Assembly (NCBI GenBank): GCA_027858835.1
Contig: JAQIBY010000181.1
Location: 1-47,527 of the forward strand
Length of the DNA: 47,527 nt
Source: Bacteroidales bacterium
GTDB lineage: Bacteria > Bacteroidota > Bacteroidia > Bacteroidales > ML635J-15
Reading direction: 5' to 3'
Numbering within the stretch: position 1 is the stretch's first letter; each line of letters opens with the position of its first letter. Both the position numbers and the translations under genes were made by a program. The notes beneath the pieces are model-generated. The model ran no database searches and was not told where the DNA came from. It saw only the letters and a program-made list of their open reading frames with translations. Positions 33,437 to 39,333 of the stretch are shown here, piece by piece.

Positions 33437-35587
33437 ATGAAAACCTATCAAACGAGTGAAATAAAAAACCTGGCACTGCTAGGGAATTCGGGCTCAGGAA
33501 AAACCACATTAGCAGAAGCCATGGTTTTTGAAAGTGGTGCATTAACAAGAAAAGGTGATATTTCATCAAAAAACACGGTGTCGGATTACAAGCCGATTGA
33601 AAAAGAGAATGAGAATTCTGTGTTTTCATCCGTTGTGTTTGCCGAACATAAAAACAAGAAAATCAACTTTATTGACAATCCGGGCATGAGTGATTTTGTC
33701 GGGAGTGTCATTAACAGTCTTCATCCTGCAGATGCAGTGGCCATGATTATTAACGCGCAGAATGGTGTTGAAGTTGGTACCGAAATACACAAACGCCTAA
33801 TGGAGCAGTTTGAAAAACCAATGATTATTGGCATCAACCATCTGGATCATGAGAAAACCAATTATGAGCGTACCGTTGAGATGATTAAAGAAACCTTTGG
33901 CGGCAATGCTGTTAGTGTACAGTTTCCTGTAAATCCGGGCATTGACTTTGACAGCATTATCGACATATTGGAGATGAAAATGTACACCTATAAGGACGGG
34001 AAAGCAAGTATCTCTGACATTCCTGCAGAACATACCGACAAAGCGGAAGAATTACGTTTGGAGCTCGTTGAAAAAGCTGCTGAAGCTGATGACAGCCTGA
34101 TGGAAGTTTTCTTTGAAACCGAAAGTTTGACTGATGAACAATTAATGCAAGGAATGACTCAGGGAATTCTTACCGGTGCATTAAATCCGATTTTCTGTTT
34201 TTCTGCAAAACCACAAATCGGAATTAATCGTTTTATGGATTTTATTGCTGACGTAATGCCAAGTCCCGATCAGGTTGCGCCAATAAAAGACAAAGCAGGT
34301 AATGATGTGAAATACGATGCATCAGCACCATTTAGCGCATTTGTTTTCAAAACTTCAAACGAAGAACATATTGGAGAAATTAACTATTTCAAAGTAATTA
34401 CCGGAGAAATTCACGAGGGTATGGATGTGACTAATGTCCGTAAAGGCTCTAAAGAACGGATTACGCAATTATATGCATGCGCCGGAAAAGACAGAACCAA
34501 AATTACTAAGCTAGTAGCAGGAGATATCGGTGCAACAGTAAAAATGAAAGTTACTAAAGCAAACGACACACTCGTTGCTCCCGGAAATGATATTGAATTT
34601 CCTGAAGTTAAATATCCGGAACCAAAATTCAGAACTGCAATTCGACCATTATCGGAAGGTGATGAAGAAAAACTTGGAGATGCATTACATAAAATGCACT
34701 TGGAAGACCCAACTTTGAAATTAGTTCATTCTAAAGAATTAAAACAAATGATTGTAAGCGGTCAGGGAGAATATCATATGAATATTCTTAAATGGCACTT
34801 AAACAACATATTTAAAGTGGAGACAGAATACCTTGCTCCTAAAATTCCTTATCGTGAGACCATCACCAAAAAAGCACAATCCGATTATCGACATAAAAAA
34901 CAATCCGGTGGATCGGGTCAATTTGGCGAAGTTCATATGATTATAGAGCCGATTATTGAAGGTATGGTTGATCCCGAGATAATGAAAATCAACGGAAAAG
35001 AGTATAAACTCAATATTAAAAACCGTGACGAAATCGAACTGGAATGGGGTGGAAAATTAGAATTTTTCAACTGCATTGTCGGAGGATCGATTGATGCACG
35101 TTTTATGCCTGCCATTTTAAAAGGCATCATGGAAAAAATAGAAGAAGGTCCGTTAACCGGTTCATATGCTCGTGATATTCGTGTTTATGTTTACGACGGG
35201 AAAATGCACCCTGTTGATTCCAATGAAATCTCTTTCAAACTTGCAGGTCGTAATGCGTTTAGTACAGCATTTAAAAATGCGGGTCCGAAAATTATGGAAC
35301 CTATTTATAATGTGGAAGTATTGGTTCCGTCAGACCGTATGGGTGATGTGATGAGTGATTTACAGGGTCGTCGTGCTATTGTTCAAGGTATGAGCAGTGA
35401 AGCCGGGTTTGAAAAAATCTCAGCAAAAGCACCATTGGCTGAACTGGGCACTTATTCAACTGCATTACAATCTATTACTGGCGGACGTGCTATGTATAGT
35501 CTTGAATTTGCGGAATATTCACAAGTCCCTGGTGATATTCAAACTGAGTTGCTTAAAGCATATGCTGAAGCACAAGAAGAAGATTAA
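33437..35587 (+). CDS. EF-G paralogue with degenerate GTPase motifs (EF-G2 type)
   Basis: The product has 716 residues with all five EF-G domains. The P-loop is kept (GNSGSGKT, residues 16-23). Other G motifs are altered. Switch I lacks RGITI and reads NENSVFSS (58-65). The DTPGH motif is DNPGM (80-84), so the catalytic His is Met84. NKMD is NHLD (134-137). Domains III-V look intact: SGGSGQFGEVHMIIEP in domain IV and SITGGRAMYSLEFAEYSQVP at the end. Length and features fit EF-G2 of Bacteroides thetaiotaomicron, reported to translocate without hydrolysing GTP and to matter during starvation and gut colonisation. The same role here is inference. The gene has its own consensus promoter and a perfect terminator, so it is a monocistronic unit. 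Confidence 0.85.
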   Translation: MKTYQTSEIKNLALLGNSGSGKTTLAEAMVFESGALTRKGDISSKNTVSDYKPIEKENENSVFSSVVFAEHKNKKINFIDNPGMSDFVGSVINSLHPADAVAMIINAQNGVEVGTEIHKRLMEQFEKPMIIGINHLDHEKTNYERTVEMIKETFGGNAVSVQFPVNPGIDFDSIIDILEMKMYTYKDGKASISDIPAEHTDKAEELRLELVEKAAEADDSLMEVFFETESLTDEQLMQGMTQGILTGALNPIFCFSAKPQIGINRFMDFIADVMPSPDQVAPIKDKAGNDVKYDASAPFSAFVFKTSNEEHIGEINYFKVITGEIHEGMDVTNVRKGSKERITQLYACAGKDRTKITKLVAGDIGATVKMKVTKANDTLVAPGNDIEFPEVKYPEPKFRTAIRPLSEGDEEKLGDALHKMHLEDPTLKLVHSKELKQMIVSGQGEYHMNILKWHLNNIFKVETEYLAPKIPYRETITKKAQSDYRHKKQSGGSGQFGEVHMIIEPIIEGMVDPEIMKINGKEYKLNIKNRDEIELEWGGKLEFFNCIVGGSIDARFMPAILKGIMEKIEEGPLTGSYARDIRVYVYDGKMHPVDSNEISFKLAGRNAFSTAFKNAGPKIMEPIYNVEVLVPSDRMGDVMSDLQGRRAIVQGMSSEAGFEKISAKAPLAELGTYSTALQSITGGRAMYSLEFAEYSQVPGDIQTELLKAYAEAQEED

Positions 35588-36006: not shown

Positions 36007-37800
36007 CTAATCCCGAATCAACTGAATTGTACCTCTTTTTTCAATAACTTGACCTGTAGTATCGACTGCCTGTATTGCATAAAAATACACACCTTCTGCG
36101 GCATCCTGATTTCCTGCAAATTTTCCGTTCCAGGTATCATTAACATCTGACCACTCATAAATCAACTGACCTGCACGGCTAAATATCTTACCTTGAAATC
36201 CGGTTAAACTCGGATCAACCAAGACTTTAAACTCGTCAAACTGTCCGTCTCCGTTCGGCGTGAAGAAATTAGCACAACGAATCAAGGCTTTATCGGGCTG
36301 AATATCTGACACAATCATCTCATCTTCACAATAAGCTTTTGTTACATGCAGACGAATTGTATTGGATATTTGTGTTAAGTCAAGAGTTGGAGCTTTAAGT
36401 GTTGAAACTAGTTCGCCATTAACATACCATTGATATTGAACATCATTATTAAATTCATCAATGCCTTTTGTTTTATTGGTCATGCGCACTGACATTCCGT
36501 CCAATGCAGTTTGAAACTCAAAATCAGCCTGCAAATCATTTTGCTCCCCGATGCTGAATTGCTCTGTTATTATACATGCATTTTTGTCAACTATTTGAAG
36601 TTGATAGTCTCCCGGATTAAGTGGTATTATTTTCTGTAATTCAATTTTCTCTTGATTTAAGAAAGCATTCAAACGATTGGAATTTGCACTTTCAATTCGC
36701 AAACTTGCCTCCTGATTACAAGTTGGTTGATTAATCACCATATTATAGTCCGGCTTTTCAGGAAGTTCAAACAGGAGCGTATCATGTAATTCACAATCTT
36801 TTTGATAATGGGTAATGTAACAATAAATCGGATCGGAATTTTCATAATCAAAATTCAAGCGATACGCATGATTTTCAATCCTTTCTACACTTCCGTTTGA
36901 CAAACTCACATCAATTTTTTGATTTTGCTCAATATCGAGCTGAATGACAGCATTATCAAGATAACAACGCGGGGCTTTTACAATTTCTACTTCCGGCATA
37001 TTCGCAGGAATAAATTCCACGATAAAGCCGATGGTAAATGTTCCGATTTCATCCGTTTGAGAATAAACCAGCTCATACTTACTATACTGTTCAGCCATTA
37101 TGGACAAGTCTGTTCCGCTTTTCTTAATGGACAAACCATCCGGCAAACGGAAATCCCCTGGGTGAGCTACTAAATTAATTGAAAACTCCAATCCACAGAC
37201 CAAGGTGTCTTTCAGATCAGGCATTTCAGGTTGTGCGACAAAAGAAATCATCATTGTATCCAATCTGTTTCCAGATTTTGACGCAAGAATCAGCAGGTAA
37301 TCTCCAGGTGTATCGGCTTCAAGCTTCGTGTTTTGTTTATTCGTGTGAATCGTCAATCCGTCATCGATAAATAAAAGCTTATACTTCTTAATGTCGATTG
37401 GAATTTCAATTTGGCTTTGATACGTACAATACGTACTCTTACAACCTGTTTGTTTCTCCTCAGCATTATCAGCAATGACGGGGCTTTCTTCAAGTTGTGT
37501 AGAATTTGCTTTATTCGTAGTGTTTGGGTTTATGATTGGCGCATTATCAGTTGTCTGATATGCTTCGGTATTCAATGGTTTCGGGCTATATGCAGGATTT
37601 GTGTTGTTAGTTATTTGCAGTGCAAGGAAAACCAACAAACTAATTGCAGCAACAATGGCAATTCCTCCTACAAACGGATTTATTGTCTGCAAGAAAGATT
37701 GTTTTGGATAATGCTGCTGTAAATTCGCTTTCAGCTTTGGCGGGGGAGTAACTTCCATCCCGTGCATTTTATCCTGAATATGTTTATCAAACTGCTTCAT
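36007..37800 (-). CDS. Anti-sigma-like transmembrane protein with type IX sorting (CHU_C) C-terminus
   Basis: The product has 597 residues. Residues 1-42 are cytoplasmic and look like the start of Bacteroidota ECF anti-sigma factors (FDKHIQDKMHGMEVTPPPKL). One membrane segment follows at about 43-63. The rest is extracytoplasmic, with beta-rich PKD-like segments and many conserved Cys. The last 90 residues form a CHU_C/gliding-associated sorting domain (NFFTPNGDGQFDEFKVLV, GKIFSRAGQLIYEW, TWNGKFAGNQDAAEGVYFY). The gene overlaps the sigma factor gene by 4 bases (ATGA), so it is translationally coupled to it. The anti-sigma role is inferred from position and N-terminus. The oddity is a sorting domain on a protein with an inner-membrane anchor and no cleavable signal peptide. 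Confidence 0.72.
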   Translation of the reverse strand: MKQFDKHIQDKMHGMEVTPPPKLKANLQQHYPKQSFLQTINPFVGGIAIVAAISLLVFLALQITNNTNPAYSPKPLNTEAYQTTDNAPIINPNTTNKANSTQLEESPVIADNAEEKQTGCKSTYCTYQSQIEIPIDIKKYKLLFIDDGLTIHTNKQNTKLEADTPGDYLLILASKSGNRLDTMMISFVAQPEMPDLKDTLVCGLEFSINLVAHPGDFRLPDGLSIKKSGTDLSIMAEQYSKYELVYSQTDEIGTFTIGFIVEFIPANMPEVEIVKAPRCYLDNAVIQLDIEQNQKIDVSLSNGSVERIENHAYRLNFDYENSDPIYCYITHYQKDCELHDTLLFELPEKPDYNMVINQPTCNQEASLRIESANSNRLNAFLNQEKIELQKIIPLNPGDYQLQIVDKNACIITEQFSIGEQNDLQADFEFQTALDGMSVRMTNKTKGIDEFNNDVQYQWYVNGELVSTLKAPTLDLTQISNTIRLHVTKAYCEDEMIVSDIQPDKALIRCANFFTPNGDGQFDEFKVLVDPSLTGFQGKIFSRAGQLIYEWSDVNDTWNGKFAGNQDAAEGVYFYAIQAVDTTGQVIEKRGTIQLIRD

Positions 37801-38330
37801 TTGTTTTGCATTAATTTATTTTGAAGTGCTTTTCTGGCTTTTGCAAACTGTGTTCGGGAAGTACTTTCCGTGATATTTAACATTTTGGCGATTTCCACAT
37901 GCTTGTATCCTTCAATAACAAAAAGGTTAAATACGGTACGGTATCCGTCGGGCAATGTTTGTATATGCTGCAATATTTCCTGTTCAGACATTCCGGACAC
38001 GATGTTATCAGCTTCTGCGGCTGAATATTCGTGATAACCATCATCTAAACTGGAAAAACTATATCTGTTTTGCTTTCGCAGATAATTGATTGCCGTATTC
38101 ACAGTAATCCGTTTTAGCCAGCCTTCAAAAGAACCTTCAAATCGATAGCCTTCTATTTTATTAAAAATGGTTAAAAAGGCTTCTTGCAAAATGTCTTCTG
38201 CCGAGGAAGCGTCTCTTGCGTAGCGCAAACATATCCCAAACAAAACCGGCGAATACGCATCATACAAGCGATCAAAGGCTTTATGGGAATGTTTTTTACA
38301 CTGTTTAACAAGTTGCTTTTCCTCCTTCAT
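37797..38330 (-). CDS. ECF-type RNA polymerase sigma factor
   Basis: The product has 177 residues. Region 2 has AFDRLYDAYSPVLFGICLRY, SSAEDILQEAFLTIFNKI and GSFEGWLKRITVNTAINYLR. Region 4 has LPDGYRTVFNLFVIEGYKHV followed by EIAKMLNITESTSRTQFAKA, the helix-turn-helix for -35-type recognition. There is no region 1.1 or region 3, as expected for group 4 sigma factors. The overlapping downstream gene is the likely anti-sigma. Neither an autoregulatory promoter nor a TAnnTTTG box is evident in the 160 bases upstream, though the DNA there is A/T-rich. The regulon is unknown. Confidence 0.92.
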   Translation of the reverse strand: MKEEKQLVKQCKKHSHKAFDRLYDAYSPVLFGICLRYARDASSAEDILQEAFLTIFNKIEGYRFEGSFEGWLKRITVNTAINYLRKQNRYSFSSLDDGYHEYSAAEADNIVSGMSEQEILQHIQTLPDGYRTVFNLFVIEGYKHVEIAKMLNITESTSRTQFAKARKALQNKLMQNK

Positions 38331-38490
38331 TTTTACATTCTGGGTATTAGACAGTACAAGTTTTTATTTCGTTGTCTGCATGTATAGATATTTTTTTAAA
38401 ATTACGAAAAATATTTTGGCTTCAATTCGCAGGAAATGATAATTCAAAAAATATTTGATTCAGAATTATTATTGCATCTAATAGGAAAGG

Positions 38491-39333
38491 CTATCGCGCA
38501 TTTGCTTTGCCGAAATACAATTGATTTAACATTTGATGCAGTTTCGGGGCAAATTTGTAATAAAAGCGTCTGTCTTCAAAACCCAGCACCCACTTTAGTC
38601 CCTGAACAGGATCCAGCACAAAAATTTCATCCGCAGTTTTCAAATCATCCGCATGAACAATGCAATCGTCAAACACTTTAATATTAAGACGGACACAGGC
38701 TTCAATCACTTTTTCACGCATAACATCCTCAATGGCACCTTCCTTTATTGCGGGTGTATAAACAGTGTCATGATCCAAGAGCATGAAGTTTGCACCAACA
38801 AAACGCGCTACATGATTCATTTCATTTAACAAAACCATTTGGTCTAATCCGTTTTGGTACATGCTGTTGATTGCAGAGGTTTCCGTTGCCGAGACACCCA
38901 CATCAAAAACTTCGGCTGACCCTGAAAACAGGCGATTTTTCCGGAAAATATCAACTTTTAATCCTTCCGAATTCATGTGAAATTTTTGACGATTAAGGGA
39001 TTCGGCTGTCATCAGATAACTTGCTTCCTTCCCGGGAGTATCAACAAAAAGCAACATTTTCAACAAGCCTCCCTGATAAATTCTGTTCATCTGAAACAAA
39101 TGCTGAATATCCTGAGCAAAGGTATTGGCAGTCATCCATGCAGGGAGTTTTATGCCTTTATAATTTGCATATTTTTCAATTTTCCGAAATTCATCTTGAT
39201 AAAAAGGCAAGGCAGAAGACAGGACAAACCATGTAAAATTCAATCTGTTAACACCTTGCAACACCGCATCGGTAGCACAAAAGAGGGCTTCGTTTTTTAT
39301 CAGATCACCATTATATATGATATGTCGGCTCAT
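38491..39333 (-). CDS. Class IV aminotransferase-like protein, PLP residues apparently lost
   Basis: The product has 280 residues with the fold pattern of class IV aminotransferases/aminodeoxychorismate lyases: IIYNGDLI at the start, then VLLNEMNHVARFVGANFMLL and VYTPAIKEGAIEDVMREKVI, matching the usual LL.....V.E....N.F.......TP...G...G..R. Two key residues are missing. No Lys stands in the segment (about 142-162) where the KTxN Schiff-base lysine should be, and the PLP-binding Glu is Arg177. The FRYGDGLFET motif is also absent. It is likely a non-PLP homologue with another job. It is the last gene of the holA operon, 3 bases after gmhB. Confidence 0.7.
   Translation of the reverse strand: MSRHIIYNGDLIKNEALFCATDAVLQGVNRLNFTWFVLSSALPFYQDEFRKIEKYANYKGIKLPAWMTANTFAQDIQHLFQMNRIYQGGLLKMLLFVDTPGKEASYLMTAESLNRQKFHMNSEGLKVDIFRKNRLFSGSAEVFDVGVSATETSAINSMYQNGLDQMVLLNEMNHVARFVGANFMLLDHDTVYTPAIKEGAIEDVMREKVIEACVRLNIKVFDDCIVHADDLKTADEIFVLDPVQGLKWVLGFEDRRFYYKFAPKLHQMLNQLYFGKANAR

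Follow-up and report, generated by a model that had tools for sequence, protein, structure and literature searches.

The sigma factor gene and its partner

The window, i.e., the whole stretch of 47,527 nucleotides analysed here, belongs to a rumen-type Bacteroidales bacterium and carries on its minus strand a gene for a 177-aa ECF sigma factor (37797-38330) and, directly behind it, a gene for a 597-aa membrane protein (36007-37800), hereafter the partner, which is proposed to be an anti-sigma factor whose C-terminal domain is of the T9SS type B. Both open reading frames were confirmed on the window, and so was the 4-base overlap of the two genes that an earlier sequence-only reading had described: the sigma factor stop codon and the partner start codon share an ATGA (37797-37800, minus strand), by which the two genes are likely to be translationally coupled. 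The partner ATG is placed at the identical -4 overlap in 12 of 23 orthologs. On the plus strand an elongation factor G-like protein of 716 aa is encoded near rpsL (33437-35587), convergent with the sigma operon, and approximately 420 bases without a clear gene lie between it and the partner gene.

The sigma protein was matched by the Pfam models Sigma70_r2 (PF04542, E-value 1.4e-18) and Sigma70_r4_2 (PF08281, E-value 1.6e-13) and by the NCBIfam model TIGR02937 (E-value 5.5e-27). It consists of sigma regions 2 and 4 only, which places it among the ECF sigma factors, and the matches returned by a sequence search of the PDB were likewise ECF sigma factors.

Five segments were delimited in the partner, all on the minus strand. 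The cytosolic N-terminal module (residues 1-42; 37675-37800) contains the motif F..I..K....PP....N....PK, which is conserved among orthologs, and is predicted to bind the sigma factor. It is followed by one hydrophobic helix according to the hydropathy profile (residues ~43-61; 37618-37674; helix 36-62 in the model of an ortholog) and by a low-complexity periplasmic linker (residues ~66-127; 37420-37605), which is probably disordered (pLDDT <50, no secondary structure) and differs in length between orthologs. The alignment and the models indicate a beta-rich ectodomain with conserved Cys residues (residues ~128-505; 36286-37419), in the region where other members have PKD domains. The protein ends in a CHU_C or T9SS type B sorting domain (residues 508-594; 36019-36279) with the C-terminal sequence KRGTIQLIRD; this domain provided the sole Pfam match of the partner (PF13585, E-value 2.9e-15) and its sole NCBIfam match (TIGR04131, T9SS type B sorting domain, E-value 9e-12), both above the curated cut-offs. 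The single membrane segment and the terminal CHU_C domain proposed in the sequence-only reading were thus both recovered.

Neither Pfam nor NCBIfam returned a beta-barrel family at the partner C-terminus, a curated anti-sigma domain at its N-terminus or, with E-values up to 1, a FecR domain. The zinc anti-sigma motif HX3CX2C is absent: the first 45 residues of the partner contain no Cys, and those of the orthologs zero or one. A sequence search of the PDB using the partner gave only a weak match of the C-terminus to a grappling-hook protein (E-value 0.0026), and the AlphaFold models were weak (mean pLDDT 52.7 and 65.0, approximately 40 at the N-terminus), including at the CHU_C end. In principle the linker, together with the stacked beta domains, would be long enough to span the periplasm.

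Conservation of the pair and probable exchange of the distal module

A whole-genome search of 61 genomes showed that almost every member of the family has orthologs. Both genes are complete in 23 family loci; in all of these the sigma gene lies directly upstream of the partner gene on the same strand, and all 23 pairs keep the order of approximately 40 residues, helix, variable linker, ectodomain and intact sorting motif, from which we conclude that the arrangement is not due to chance. The full sorting motif is conserved in the family, including the terminal KG-t-qLiR. The loci obtained by searching a profile of the ectodomain over 393 genomes of the order were then read, and yielded 15 further sigma-linked CHU_C-ended proteins from nine other families, in which PKD domains often precede CHU_C. 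The CHU_C-tagged sigma partner is therefore widespread, and a search for the same domain order in further sigma-linked proteins, which the sequence-only reading had suggested as a check, was positive both within the family (23 pairs) and elsewhere (15 proteins). The search performed with an alignment of eight relatives gave 11 rumen loci from Bacteroidales or Bacteroidia, and the relatives with named records are uncultured rumen Bacteroidales or Bacteroidia; searching the named genome contigs with the single protein gave no matches.

Several individual loci deserve mention. The ortholog of genome G029 (L048, G029:C10) is split by a TAA into two frames beside an intact sigma gene, and represents either a pseudogene or a sequencing error. 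In the genome of the window another sigma/anti-sigma pair also has a CHU_C end (L172, G000:C60:17000-27000); its partner protein has 444 aa, and a CHU_C protein of 2786 aa with a signal peptide is encoded just downstream of the pair. Two proteins found by CHU_C similarity (L058 and L059) were rejected as relatives, since their signal peptides are ordinary and a sigma gene is absent, and L187 was rejected as a CHU_C type for want of a Pfam match.

For the analysis of the N-terminal module a profile was built from 28 N-termini and searched in 296 genomes of the phylum, with the neighbouring genes not used as a criterion. In each of the 49 loci that were read among the matches, which include two paralogs from the window genome (L172 and L173), an ECF sigma gene lies directly before the gene of the matched protein. 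The C-termini found behind the module are mostly outer-membrane beta-barrels (PF13568, PF13505), some are CHU_C domains and some are short. The sequence-only reading had called the N-terminus anti-sigma-like, and the profile shared with barrel-type sigma partners agrees with this description, which is based on the comparison made here; the N-terminal module appears to behave as an ECF-linked anti-sigma module, with sigma binding as a prediction.

This combination of segments is known from the dual membrane-spanning anti-sigma factors (Dma), which have an N-terminal sigma-binding segment, a transmembrane helix, a disordered tether and a C-terminal barrel (PMC13088901). The partner resembles them in the adjacent sigma gene, the short N-terminal segment (sigma-binding by prediction), the one transmembrane helix, the long disordered tether and a distal module of outer-membrane type, and its N-terminal profile is common to the barrel-type members found here. 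It differs from them in ending in a T9SS type B domain with beta or PKD domains instead of a beta-barrel. By the criterion of the barrel the partner is not a Dma protein, but it is built like one and probably works like one.

The phylogenetic tree of 86 sigma factors requires five changes of the CHU_C label, at least two of which are forced by well-supported branches, compared with 27.5 for random labels, and the CHU_C types sit among the barrel types. The distances between sigma factors and between N-termini correlate at 0.91, to which shared ancestry contributes. Because the CHU_C label changes and lies among barrel types, the distal module seems to have been exchanged on one anti-sigma chassis, and the swapping of barrel and CHU_C modules on this common chassis is the simplest reading of the sequence comparisons. 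The dual-membrane anti-sigma idea would accordingly be modular, with barrel and T9SS domain alternating on the same N-terminal module. Among the barrel types is a sigma-linked (Dma-like) protein of 489 aa from the window genome (L173, G000:C81:1-9000), which was called by its similarity to a barrel set made here and has no Pfam match; a conserved P-x-W type motif seems to be present twice in its N-terminus. A third class has the same N-terminus, approximately 200-330 aa and no recognised C-terminal domain (L147, L153, L160-L164, L168-L171).

Known type B C-terminal domains occur on proteins that are freed by signal peptidase. The observation in the sequence-only reading that CHU_C domains normally belong to secreted proteins holds for the genome of the window, where the hydrophobic core starts at residue 3-25 in all 20 other CHU_C proteins with a readable N-terminus, as expected for proteins bearing a signal peptide. 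The hydrophobic core of the partner starts only at about residue 43 and is not followed by an AXA-type site, and the orthologs likewise have no signal-peptide-like N-terminus. By this comparison the partner lacks the cleavable Sec signal peptide of T9SS type B cargo, and the case that would have spoken against the earlier proposal, a cleaved signal peptide removing the N-terminus, is not what the sequences indicate. Since an early signal-peptide-like core as in the 20 other proteins is lacking, the N-terminus should remain in the cytosol. The usual occurrence of CHU_C domains on secreted proteins could still suggest an ordinary T9SS surface protein that has an unusually long signal peptide and lies in a sigma operon by coincidence. 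This explanation is highly improbable given the position of the core without a cleavage motif, the unbroken association with ECF genes in many families and the conserved N-terminus of 40 residues that is common to barrel-type sigma partners.

Predicted promoter and regulon

A predicted autoregulatory promoter of the ECF type, CAACG-N16-TGTCTAAT, with -35/-10-like elements was located by phylogenetic footprinting at 38346-38374 (minus strand), 15 bases before the sigma start codon. Among relatives the sequence upstream of the sigma gene has diverged, the exceptions being CAACG, a spacer of exactly 16 bases, TGTC and A/T. The motif CAACG-N16-TGTC is exact in 17 of 20 family loci, and the remaining three each deviate from it by a single base of the CAACG box; the window contains no match other than that at 38346-38374 (0.07 expected). 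Genome G001 of the same genus (83% complete) has no exact motif. The site before the sigma gene looks like an ECF promoter from which the operon drives its own transcription.

A strict form of the motif (CAACGAAA-N12-TTGTC-WWWW) was found at exactly three places in the window genome, each 59-105 bases before a start codon. On contig C88 the product of the gene behind it has 1670 aa and combines SprB repeats with a T9SS domain of type B. On C114 the product has 1060 aa, leucine-rich repeats and a T9SS domain of type A, and a PorP/SprF-like gene follows after 27 bases. On C60 the motif precedes the gene of a secreted protein of 140 aa, behind which lies a gene, cut off by the contig end, for a giant secreted protein. 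Four other genomes, spread over two other genera, have kin of the 1670-aa gene with the motif, and the same numbers apply to kin of the 140-aa gene; in relatives the motif also precedes further genes whose products carry T9SS domains (type A or type B) or Fib_succ_major domains. In nine genomes the motif sites were more often intergenic than control sites of the reversed motif, and a gene with a signal peptide started 5-120 bases downstream of 16 of 30 motif sites and of 1 of 32 reversed-motif sites (Fisher p 7e-6), where motif sites from related genomes are not independent. Raw motif counts barely exceed the reversed control (6 vs 5 in the window genome) and were discarded as evidence for the regulon, which for this reason rests on position and conservation; any single site would need further support. 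With T9SS cargo genes in the predicted regulon, the link of the pair to the T9SS becomes concrete. In 12 of the 13 family loci with enough flanking sequence a CHU_C cargo gene lies directly upstream of the sigma gene; in the window this position is occupied by an unrelated gene (38491-39333).

Motif matches on C71 and C91 were not accepted as members of the regulon, there being no convincing gene behind them. The secreted proteins of approximately 140 aa form a conserved family found repeatedly behind CAACG-N16-TGTC (L242, L278, L281, L343, L345, L350, L361), and the two members scanned had no Pfam match. At the start of a contig of another genome (G007:C112:37-181) the motif occurs three times at a spacing of 58 bases in a repeat array, probably as a chance match.

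Possible coupling to the T9SS

The window genome encodes SprA and 16 PorP_SprF genes, indicating that a T9SS is present. Type B CTD proteins bind PorP-like outer-membrane barrels in Porphyromonas gingivalis and Flavobacterium johnsoniae (PMC9143113). The genome's 16 PorP/SprF genes are all located outside the window contig; adjacency to such a gene is common, and not universal, for type B cargo. The partner shares with the type B cargo SprB/PG1035 (PMC9143113) the CHU_C/TIGR04131 C-terminal domain with an intact motif, and differs from it in having no cleavable signal peptide, being anchored in the inner membrane and being linked to a sigma gene. An anti-sigma factor in which CHU_C serves as a periplasmic beta-sandwich sensor that never meets the T9SS and receives another envelope signal would be compatible with the membrane anchor and with the lack of a cognate PorP/SprF gene beside the partner gene, and the CHU_C end can drift, as in L189, where it is weak (17.9 bits, below the cut-off). 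We regard this as unlikely, because the full motif is conserved in the family to its last residues, the predicted regulon includes a PorP-like gene besides T9SS cargo, and an outer-membrane barrel takes the place of this module in the sister proteins, pointing to the outer membrane.

Our preferred reading, to which we assign a probability of roughly 60%, is that the partner is an autoregulated, cargo-mimicking anti-sigma factor that couples T9SS or outer-membrane status to the expression of cargo. The sequence-only reading had put forward an inner-membrane protein with a T9SS end that could sense type IX secretion or the envelope and release the sigma factor; the comparisons support this proposal, in which sensing is a hypothesis. 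The preferred reading draws on the gene order, the architecture and its conservation, the module swap with barrels, the conserved promoter and the cargo genes behind it, all computed here; from these we infer sigma binding by the N-terminus, docking to the T9SS or PorP, and the mode and direction of release. The N-terminus of the partner would hold the sigma factor at the inner membrane, in a Dma-like protein (cytosolic segment, helix, flexible tether) whose outer-membrane barrel has been replaced by a T9SS type B domain. While the sigma factor is held, the CHU_C end would act as a tethered cargo mimic that docks with the T9SS translocon or a PorP/SprF-like outer-membrane protein. Docking might change with free T9SS capacity, lack or excess of the anchor, or envelope damage, and the tether would pass on the change, probably as a force or by way of regulated proteolysis, freeing the sigma factor for transcription of its own operon and of T9SS cargo or other secreted surface proteins from CAACG-N16-TGTC promoters. 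The switch could act in either of two directions, switching on cargo in response to a free machine, by the logic of FlgM, or reacting to blocked export or envelope damage, the apparent behaviour of barrel-type pairs (PMC9308784). Against this reading count the membrane tether, as opposed to the signal peptidase-freed state of known type B CTDs, the weak models, the contig devoid of PorP/SprF genes, the raw motif counts near the control and the motif-less genome G001.

FlgM is an exported anti-sigma factor: the machine that recognises its export signal is the one whose late genes are under control. A FlgM-like T9SS checkpoint, in which the tethered anti-sigma factor is engaged as mock cargo by the T9SS or a PorP/SprF anchor and couples cargo transcription to the state of the machine, is possible and is offered tentatively. 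FlgM belongs to another secretion system, is soluble and small, and has no homology to the partner. A sharper form of the cargo-mimic reading would let an idle, working T9SS pull or translocate the CHU_C end, strip off the anti-sigma factor and turn cargo on; it would suit an anti-sigma factor bearing the export signal of a machine whose cargo the sigma factor seemingly transcribes, but appears somewhat unlikely, since the partner is membrane-anchored unlike FlgM and full export would require a cut.

Control of vesicles or a response to envelope stress is known for Dma-like pairs (BcpT in Phocaeicola, PMC9308784; Dma1/2, PMC13088901). The unusual Phocaeicola vulgatus pair M0N98_03760-61, to which the EcfO pair of Bacteroides fragilis is similar, combines, like the pair in the window, an ECF sigma factor with a periplasm-spanning anti-sigma factor; it differs in its C-terminal beta-barrel and in being induced by a toxin, probably via envelope stress (PMC9308784). 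The partner could likewise be an envelope-stress relay in the style of Dma, its distal end reporting outer-membrane damage and the cargo genes being a surface-remodelling response. To us this too is somewhat unlikely, as it leaves the replacement of the barrel by a T9SS address unexplained and the predicted regulon consists of secreted proteins, with no stress genes seen in it; the Dma regulon comprises vesicle or PUL genes, as against the T9SS cargo predicted here.

Returning to the reading of the partner as a cargo mimic, signalling from CTD proteins has a precedent by a different path in P. gingivalis, where the T9SS CTD protein PorA feeds into ECF control through PorY, PorX and SigP, and SigP controls components of the machine (PMC7712824). 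Both systems would have a CTD protein feeding ECF sigma control of T9SS-related genes. The PorXY-SigP route uses a separate surface protein, a two-component system and a sigma factor, whereas the CTD and the anti-sigma module are here in one protein, and the predicted targets are cargo genes rather than machine components. With the known PorXY-SigP route governing machine genes, a cargo-tagged sigma partner with a predicted cargo regulon is a direct and testable candidate for matching the supply of large T9SS cargo to the capacity of the machine in Bacteroidota. The predicted target genes themselves encode T9SS-exported proteins, so that the cell may tie surface protein production to the state of the exporter.

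The open literature searched, with the 2024 PNAS Dma paper outside its scope, contained no description of T9SS sorting domains on sigma-linked proteins. Beyond the sequence-only reading, the comparisons suggest that the N-terminal module also carries outer-membrane barrels and that the regulon, as predicted, includes T9SS cargo. New here is also the conserved ECF promoter CAACG-N16-TGTC before the sigma gene, which recurs before genes of secreted proteins.
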